Below, piece after piece: positions 1,054 through 8,550 of a DNA stretch of 10,003 bases (positions are counted from its first letter, which is position 1; the number at the start of each line of letters is the position of its first letter). Source of the stretch: a bacterium (lineage in GTDB: Bacteria; CG2-30-53-67; CG2-30-70-394). The notes under the pieces were generated by a model. It searched no databases. It saw only the letters and a program-made list of their open reading frames with translations, and was not told the DNA's origin. The translations under genes were made by a program, and so were the position numbers. The stretch is taken from NCBI GenBank assembly GCA_024278555.1, contig JAJRSX010000074.1:1-10003 (forward strand), given 5' to 3'.

Positions 1054-1134
1054 GTAGGAGCGGGTTGTACCCGCGACCCGCGCCCGCAGGGCGCGCCGCG
1101 CTACGCGCGGATCGGGGGCATGGCCCCCTCCTAC
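1054..1134. repeat. BIME-like element: closing stem around four 3-nt-loop hairpins
   Basis: GTAGGA (1054-1059) pairs with TCCTAC (1129-1134). Between them lie four perfect 6-bp hairpins, each with a 3-nt loop: GCGGGT-TGT-ACCCGC (1060-1074), GCGCCC-GCA-GGGCGC (1080-1094), CCGCGC-TAC-GCGCGG (1096-1110), GGGGGC-ATG-GCCCCC (1114-1128). Both ends have the GTAG-plus-hairpin layout of REP sequences, in inverted orientation, so it resembles a bacterial interspersed mosaic element. The right edge supplies the stop codon of comF. A second full copy is at 8466-8550. Confidence 0.8.
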
Positions 1135-6122: not shown

Positions 6123-7807
<1,685 letters not shown>

Positions 7808-8030: not shown

Positions 8031-8062
8031 CGCAAAGGCGCCAAGACGCCAGGGCGCAAAGG
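8031..8062 (+). repeat. Four-unit 8-nt array (CGCAAAGG type)
   Basis: Four abutting 8-nt units: CGCAAAGG, CGCCAAGA, CGCCAGGG, CGCAAAGG. The first and last units are identical. The related minus-strand array at 138-172 uses CGCGAAGA and CGCCAAGG units. Confidence 0.75.
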
Positions 8063-8136
8063 GGGGAATAATTGGGGGGGGAGGCGTCGCCGGCCGCAAA
8101 CCGGGGAACGGCGGGGGCCTGGAAGGCTATTTCAGC

Positions 8137-8165
8137 CACGGAATTCACGGAAGGGCACGGAAAGG
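8137..8165 (+). repeat. CACGGAA array, units of 9, 10 and 10 nt
   Basis: Units are CACGGAATT, CACGGAAGGG and CACGGAAAGG. The same 9/10/10 spacing recurs at 8415-8443 and, on the minus strand, at 275-247, so the unit lengths themselves are conserved. Confidence 0.75.
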
Positions 8166-8238
8166 GAGGGCTGCCGGGAGAGGGGAGTCACCGGTGGTGA
8201 ACACCGGGGGCCGGCAACGGCCTGGAAGGCGGGGCTCG

Positions 8239-8465: not shown

Positions 8466-8550
8466 GTAGGAGCGGGTTGTACCCGCGATCCGGCGCCAAC
8501 GGCGCCGGCCGGCCCGAAGGGCCGGGGTCGGGGGCGCGGCCCCCTCCTAC
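8466..8550. repeat. BIME-like element, second complete copy
   Basis: GTAGGA (8466-8471) pairs with TCCTAC (8545-8550). Four hairpins lie between, all with 3-nt loops: GCGGGT-TGT-ACCCGC (8472-8486), CCGGCGCC-AAC-GGCGCCGG (8490-8508), CCGGCCC-GAA-GGGCCGG (8509-8525) and GGGGGC-GCG-GCCCCC (8530-8544). The first 23 nt are identical to 1054-1076. Hairpins 2 and 3 have different stem sequences from the first copy but retain full pairing. Confidence 0.82.

Follow-up and report, generated by a model that had tools for sequence, protein, structure and literature searches.

REPINs of Pseudomonas fluorescens SBW25 are built of two inverted REPs with conserved ends and a variable spacer, occur in many extragenic copies, and bear compensatory changes within the spacer that were explicitly noted (Bertels and Rainey 2011, PMC3116915). 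The element described here has all of this in common with them. However, the SBW25 spacer closes one long hairpin (PMC3116915), whereas that of the present element consists of two adjacent hairpins of fixed geometry (6–8 bp stems, 3-nt loop) with GNA-biased loops; and SBW25 REPINs lie near specific RAYT genes (PMC3116915), whereas no such gene was found in the source genome.

With GTAG-1 REPs (Di Nocera et al. 2013, PMC3733652), the element shares a construction from GTAG, GA, a stem-loop, and a short conserved motif (CGA), as well as the formation of head-to-head (HH) dimers—often heterodimers—at unidirectional or convergent sites and the use of the terminal TAG as a stop codon. Dimer spacers with small stem-loops are described in that survey: some have complementary ends, some one stem-loop, and those of CGTC-3 dimers of A. 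tumefaciens two stem-loops 20–23 bp apart (PMC3733652). Two abutting spacer hairpins with a loop rule, as present here, are not reported there (PMC3733652). A further likeness from the same survey concerns the double inverted repeats of P. putida and P. fluorescens, in which a degenerate GTAG-1 unit is joined to an unrelated stem-loop and which number hundreds of copies (PMC3733652): a REP hairpin stands beside a second stem-loop, as in the half-unit of our element. Double inverted repeats flank TIR-type transposase genes (Di Nocera et al. 2013), whereas the half-units described here form compact 81–87-nt head-to-head dimers and were not seen around transposases. The inner hairpins, in turn, resemble the early promoter hairpins of phage N4, which bear short GC stems and a C–G-closed 3-nt loop with a 5′ G and a 3′ A (PMC4496689).

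REPINs with compensatory spacer changes and REP dimers with spacer stem-loops are, hence, already published. The literature searched, which lacked most subscription journals, held no example of two abutting spacer hairpins that obey a polar GNA rule. With this element, REPINs reach a lineage beyond the phyla given for GTAG repeats in the 2013 survey, which do not include Nitrospirota (PMC3733652), and its spacer is clearly structured, beyond mere fixed length. The strand-polar loop rule offers a handle, in this REP element, on DNA-level versus RNA-level selection—a long-standing uncertainty about REPs.

Architecture of the element

The window, i.e. the whole stretch of DNA analyzed, is one entire contig of 10,003 bases; the genome searched is a draft of 3.06 Mb in 211 contigs. 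The feature under study joins two GTAG-type REPs head to head (REPIN/BIME), with two further hairpins as the spacer between them. Both window copies, at 1054–1134 and 8466–8550 (Table 1), show the GTAGGA/TCCTAC closing stem and the four hairpins of the original prediction, and hairpin 1 and the stem of hairpin 4 are indeed identical between them. Copy 1 is oriented opposite to copy 2, as judged from the inner hairpins and junctions. A search of Rfam up to E = 1 matched neither copy.

Table 1 Features of the element copies in the window
Feature	Position	Strand	Remark
Complete element, copy 1, 81 nt	1054–1134		inner hairpins A-first on − strand
Copy 1 outer closing stem, left arm GTAGGA	1054–1059	+	pairs with 1129–1134 TCCTAC; fold, invariant ends
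Copy 1 outer hairpin 1, REP palindrome GCGGGT-TGT-ACCCGC	1060–1074	+	fold; covarying pairs in hairpin
Copy 1 inner hairpin, B type, CGCGCCC-GCA-GGGCGCG	1079–1095	+	loop GCA on +, TGC on −
Copy 1 inner hairpin, A type, CCGCGC-TAC-GCGCGG	1096–1110	+	loop is GTA on −, beside GTAG of − strand
Copy 1 outer hairpin 4, second REP inverted, GGGGGC-ATG-GCCCCC	1114–1128	+	fold
Copy 1 outer closing stem, right arm TCCTAC	1129–1134	+	
Complete element, copy 2, 85 nt	8466–8550		A-first on + strand
Copy 2 outer hairpin 1, GCGGGT-TGT-ACCCGC	8472–8486	+	fold
Copy 2 inner hairpin A, CCGGCGCC-AAC-GGCGCCGG	8490–8508	+	fold
Copy 2 inner hairpin B, CCGGCCC-GAA-GGGCCGG	8509–8525	+	fold
Copy 2 outer hairpin 4, GGGGGC-GCG-GCCCCC	8530–8544	+	fold
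Truncated half copy (one REP and one arm of inner hairpin), 30 nt	978–1007	−	identical to 1105–1134

Between the invariant ends GTAGGAG and CTCCTAC, the A-first layout reads GTAGGA, H1 (6 bp), GAT, hairpin A (7–8 bp stem), hairpin B (7 bp stem), GRTC, H4 (6 bp), TCCTAC, with a 3-nt loop in A and in B. Each half consists of GTAGGA, a REP hairpin, GAY, and a further hairpin, the 3-nt loop of which varies; at one locus (L163), such a half-unit stands alone with its inner hairpin complete. In total, 71 complete copies of 80–87 nt could be parsed. Their commonest A stems are CCGCGCC, CCGGCGCC, CCGCGGCC, and CCGGGGCC, and their commonest B stems CCGGCCC and CAGGCCC. The outer loops fall into few types (TTGYA, CCRTG, and CTCCYG), which H1 and H4 mostly share, while in 61 of the 71 copies the H1 and H4 stems are unlike, making these copies heterodimers. 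The 3-nt loops predicted throughout hold for both window copies; genome-wide, this length is constant only in the inner hairpins, and outer hairpins elsewhere can carry 4-nt loops (e.g., GCGAGC-TCCC-GCTCGC).

Copy number and classification

A covariance-model search of the genome returned 146 matches on both strands, corresponding to about 95 distinct places by our count, so that further copies do exist. The pattern of the ends only, GTAGGAG-N55..84-CTCCTAC, occurs 58 times compared with two occurrences of the reversed pattern. The copies are related, so counts across them, here and below, are not independent.

With a short palindrome, a GTAG tag at one end, and many mostly intergenic copies, the element belongs to the GTAG REP superfamily. 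The order GTAG-GA-stem-loop-GAY/CGA in nearly all copies matches GTAG-1/-2 as described (PMC3733652), exact family number aside, and two inverted REPs forming a conserved unit around a spacer able to form hairpins constitute a REPIN/BIME. The REP/BIME membership initially proposed is thus borne out by GTAG termini, head-to-head dimers, about 95 copies, and an intergenic location beside gene 3′ ends.

Covariation and folding

An alignment of mixed orientations and lengths with MAFFT was poor, and gapless classes of equal length were used instead. Across the 71 copies, inner stem A is Watson–Crick paired to 92.3% compared with 78.7% when right arms are shuffled among copies, and inner stem B to 95.8% compared with 83.6%. 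Pairing of the inner hairpins, hence, lies far above partner-shuffled controls rather than being lost as often as chance predicts. The covariation score, computed on 22 gapless 85-nt copies, reaches 0.119 versus 0.047 ± 0.007 for shuffled copies and at most 0.059 with partners slid; two-sided changes occur in seven pairs, among them the inner-stem columns 28–40, 29–39, and 45–59. Compensatory changes in the inner stems—and with them the proposed constraint on structure—are confirmed by both data sets. The original prediction had arrived at this point by noting that hairpins 2 and 3 differ between the two window copies with pairing kept. Preserved pairing stands on the 71-copy test, which is independent of that comparison; the hairpin-by-hairpin match itself, however, may join non-homologous hairpins, given the opposite orientation of copy 1.

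As single-stranded DNA, both strands of both window copies adopt the four-hairpin structure as their minimum-energy fold (−32 to −35 kcal/mol; z of −3.7 to −4.3 against dinucleotide shuffles). As RNA, four hairpins are obtained for copy 1 on the + strand and copy 2 on the − strand, and the remaining two strands prefer a long form with the outer REPs paired together. This long form is also favored by 49 of 64 isolated copies folded as DNA, most of which retain both inner hairpins. On the level of sequence evolution, however, the long-form pairs 8–78 and 20–66 are broken in 18–19 of the 22 copies, whereas the local pairs 8–20 and 66–78 hold. This favors local outer hairpins over REP–REP pairing, despite isolated-strand energies that often prefer the long form.

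Genomic context

Gene context was taken from a codon-usage gene caller trained on the element loci. Copies lie between unidirectional genes in 34 cases, between convergent genes in 26, and between divergent genes in one, and the orientation of the element relative to flanking genes is evenly split (16:18). Nearly all copies are downstream of at least one gene, and 38 of 86 adjacent gene 3′ ends lie no more than 50 nt from the element. At 22 of these 86 ends, the G-TAG of the element itself is the stop codon; the remaining 64 genes end in TGA (27), TAG (27), or TAA (10). In the window, positions 1131–1133 (CTA) in the right arm of copy 1 form the TAG stop codon of a comF-like gene on the − strand. 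Placement after gene 3′ ends with TAG often as the stop codon is the location habit of the GTAG superfamily, whose REP termini often supply TAG stop codons (PMC3733652). Among sister-species orthologues of genes with such G-TAG ends, four lack an element yet terminate at the same codon (two with GTAG, one with GTAA, and one with CTAG), and the others end earlier or fail to align to their ends. This small number of orthologues hints that the stop codon may predate insertion of the element.

The truncated copy at 978–1007 directly follows the Rho-independent terminator (~937–971) of an iron-sulfur carrier-like gene (592–915).

Inner loops and their polarity

The inner loops are near saturation: 58% of their sites differ even between copies with 0–1 differences at the other ~78 positions—a bin of only four pairs—compared with 66–68% for unrelated or most different pairs and 2–28% for other site classes in their closest bin. 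Yet, out of 142 inner loops, 64 (45%) are GNA or its complement TNC, compared with 38.8 expected from single-position composition and a background share of 13% (CCNNNGG in the loci examined), and loops able to extend the stem by pairing of their first with their third base are depleted (10% versus 27%). In 48 cases, GNA is on the strand that carries the nearer 5′-GTAG, and in 16 it is on the opposite one (p = 8e-5). The copy set defined by its ends only behaves similarly, with GNA/TNC in 40 of 90 inner loops and a ratio of 30:10 for the own-GTAG strand. Because of this polarity, the element reads as two inverted half-units, each of a REP hairpin and a GNA hairpin. The remaining 55% of inner loops are neither GNA nor TNC; a recent subfamily, for instance, has retained GTG.

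A C(GNA)G loop of the N4 type on a short GC stem is, hence, found in a large minority of the inner hairpins but not in all. In N4 promoters, the closing C–G and the 5′ G and 3′ A of the 3-nt loop are needed for hairpin extrusion and stability (PMC4496689), and the hairpins extrude under physiological supercoiling (PMC4496689). The analogy is limited to the inner hairpins of the element and implies no promoter or polymerase role. As C(GNA)G is needed for this supercoil-driven process in N4, its presence here favors a DNA reading over an RNA reading. DNA loop energies are of no use for GNA stability, as the parameter set assigns all triloops the same value.

The transposase question

The substrate of TnpA-REP must be folded single-stranded DNA that carries GTAG, in which the enzyme reads features of loops or bulges (PMC8266576). 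The REP-associated tyrosine transposase that the original prediction suggested looking for did not turn up: neither the genome nor the examined loci hold a GTAG-flanked RAYT gene. The genome encodes four Y1 transposases (PF01797), one above and three below the REP_Tyr_transpos (NCBIfam) cut-off. None is flanked by GTAG REPs; the repeats at their flanks contain GGGGTCAG or GGGGACAG, in agreement with the TIRYT-type motif GGGGWSAS. These terminal inverted repeats are unrelated to the element, and one of the genes has a single REP ~100 bp off. The four REP-type Y1 genes (L029–L032) have differing flanking inverted repeats, and the protein of L032 bears a C-terminal DnaA-like DNA-binding domain (TIGR00362 residues 331–436). 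As the assembly consists of 211 contigs, several of which end beside element copies, a cognate transposase gene could be absent from it. REP families without a REPtron have been reported (PMC3733652).

What maintains the structure

The original prediction left selection as a transposase substrate and selection as RNA side by side. GNA polarity follows the GTAG ends and not transcription, and the orientation relative to genes is even; the evidence, hence, leans toward folded single-stranded DNA, although the GTAG-flanked RAYT gene expected with it was not found. The element is probably a non-autonomous REPIN/BIME with a structured spacer that spreads as folded single-stranded DNA by a RAYT-type enzyme, with the inner hairpins aiding folding or extrusion. 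We infer mobilization and extrusion, the latter by analogy with N4 promoters. The enzyme moving the copies would be a TnpA-REP/RAYT-type Y1 (HUH) transposase; it would require GTAG plus hairpin and might by now be lost, be unassembled, or act in trans. The inner C(GNA)G hairpins would be kept because, on the strand of the active REP, they aid folding of the single-stranded substrate or its extrusion from supercoiled DNA. If only folded copies were replicated, stem pairing would be preserved, while loop letters beyond GNA could drift freely through many rounds. The idea that every transposition renews the loops was abandoned, as one subfamily and one pair retain theirs.

A more specific and tentative possibility is that the inner hairpins form a DNA-extrusion module, in which C(GNA)G tips on the strand of the 5′-GTAG REP open the duplex under supercoiling. 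If true, a single-strand-specific REP transposase would not have to await replication to gain access to its folded substrate, and a mobile element would carry its own hairpin-extruding parts—with loop-type selection recorded in nearly 100 copies of one genome.

Selection might instead act on transcripts, with the element maintained as a fold of the mRNA 3′ end (a stabilizer, an attenuator, or a ribosome-stalling hairpin near the stop codon) and covariation reflecting this role. The position downstream of genes, often within 50 nt of the 3′ end, and the stable RNA folds of the window copies speak for such a role, and E. coli REPs ≤15 nt from a stop codon are reported to stall ribosomes, as cited in PMC12306157. 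We nevertheless consider it unlikely, given the random orientation relative to flanking genes and a GNA/TNC asymmetry that tracks GTAG ends. In addition, the frequency of a loop bears no relation to its energy in RNA (Spearman 0.10), the copies are lineage-specific, and mismatches on the A-first strand show no G–U excess (T–G/G–T 13 versus A–C/C–A 15), which is a weak argument as this strand is not set by transcription.

Alternatively, the inner loops could be hypermutable or re-made, with the arms held complementary by a mutational process (template switching, palindrome correction, or opening and repair of hairpin tips) and not by selection. This would account for arms that change in matched pairs and for loops almost as divergent between near-identical copies as between unrelated ones; between L005 and L011, for example, none of the six loop bases agrees, against a single difference elsewhere. 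However, loops were retained across the copies of the subfamily L038/L046/L047/L051 and in the pair L049/L050, so that they are not re-made each time, and the closest bin holds only four pairs. The constant 3-nt length, the GNA preference, and the scarcity of extendable loops suggest a structural filter, and strong constraint on all but the loops yields the same pattern; we, hence, regard a mutational origin as rather improbable. Ordinary Rho-independent terminators or chance palindromes, which are easily found in this very GC-rich genome and of which a real terminator lies near copy 1, are ruled out by copy number (58 copies versus two for the control) and covariation, as well as by invariant termini and stems that no T-tract follows.

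Distribution and relatives

The closest named relative is Nitrospirae bacterium CG2_30_70_394, whose FabI is 92% identical (contig MNYW01000179.1). A sister species holds about five decayed copies of the same plan, which makes the plan older than the split but not the expansion; the latter is, judging from these genomes, lineage-specific. The element is absent at five of five comparable syntenic sites of the sister species, where intergenic divergence is too great for a clean empty site. Neither excision nor fresh insertion was seen in this comparison, in which divergence blurs the insertion boundaries. Two sister-species copies lie 128 bp apart (L196 1501–1583; G001:C158:1768–1850 and 1896–1978) and are followed by near-identical sequence, a tandem amplification that took in the element and its flank.

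Six more genomes of the class contained no copies. Among 185 genomes drawn from the class to which an Acidithiobacillus genome belongs, the covariance search found matches in two, absence from the others being weak evidence given strict filters and a narrow model. Both have GTAG-type REP ends like those of the source genome and ordinary spacers. In one of them (G195; L280, L282, and L283), REP dimers carry the same GTAGGAGCGGGCCATGCCCGCGAC half-sequence around an unrelated spacer, which suggests that outer REPs and spacers evolve separately.

Within the source genome, the starts of contigs C48 and C102 (L038 1–260 and L046 1–260) are near-identical over 260 nt including the element, apart from a C-to-G difference at a single stem base that disrupts its pair; they represent either a recent duplication or a strain variant.

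Other features of the window

The ABC-F (EttA-like) gene at 6123–7807 on the − strand is split into two overlapping open reading frames, 6123–7160 and 7157–7807, with a frameshift near 7157–7196 that is either an assembly error or a real lesion. Another repeat family of the same genome is represented by the intervals 175–352 and 8060–8237, an inverted pair of 178 nt that is 73% alike and is made of intergenic repeats of the 'cacggaattcacggaagggcacgg' and 'caaaggcgccaagacgcc' type.
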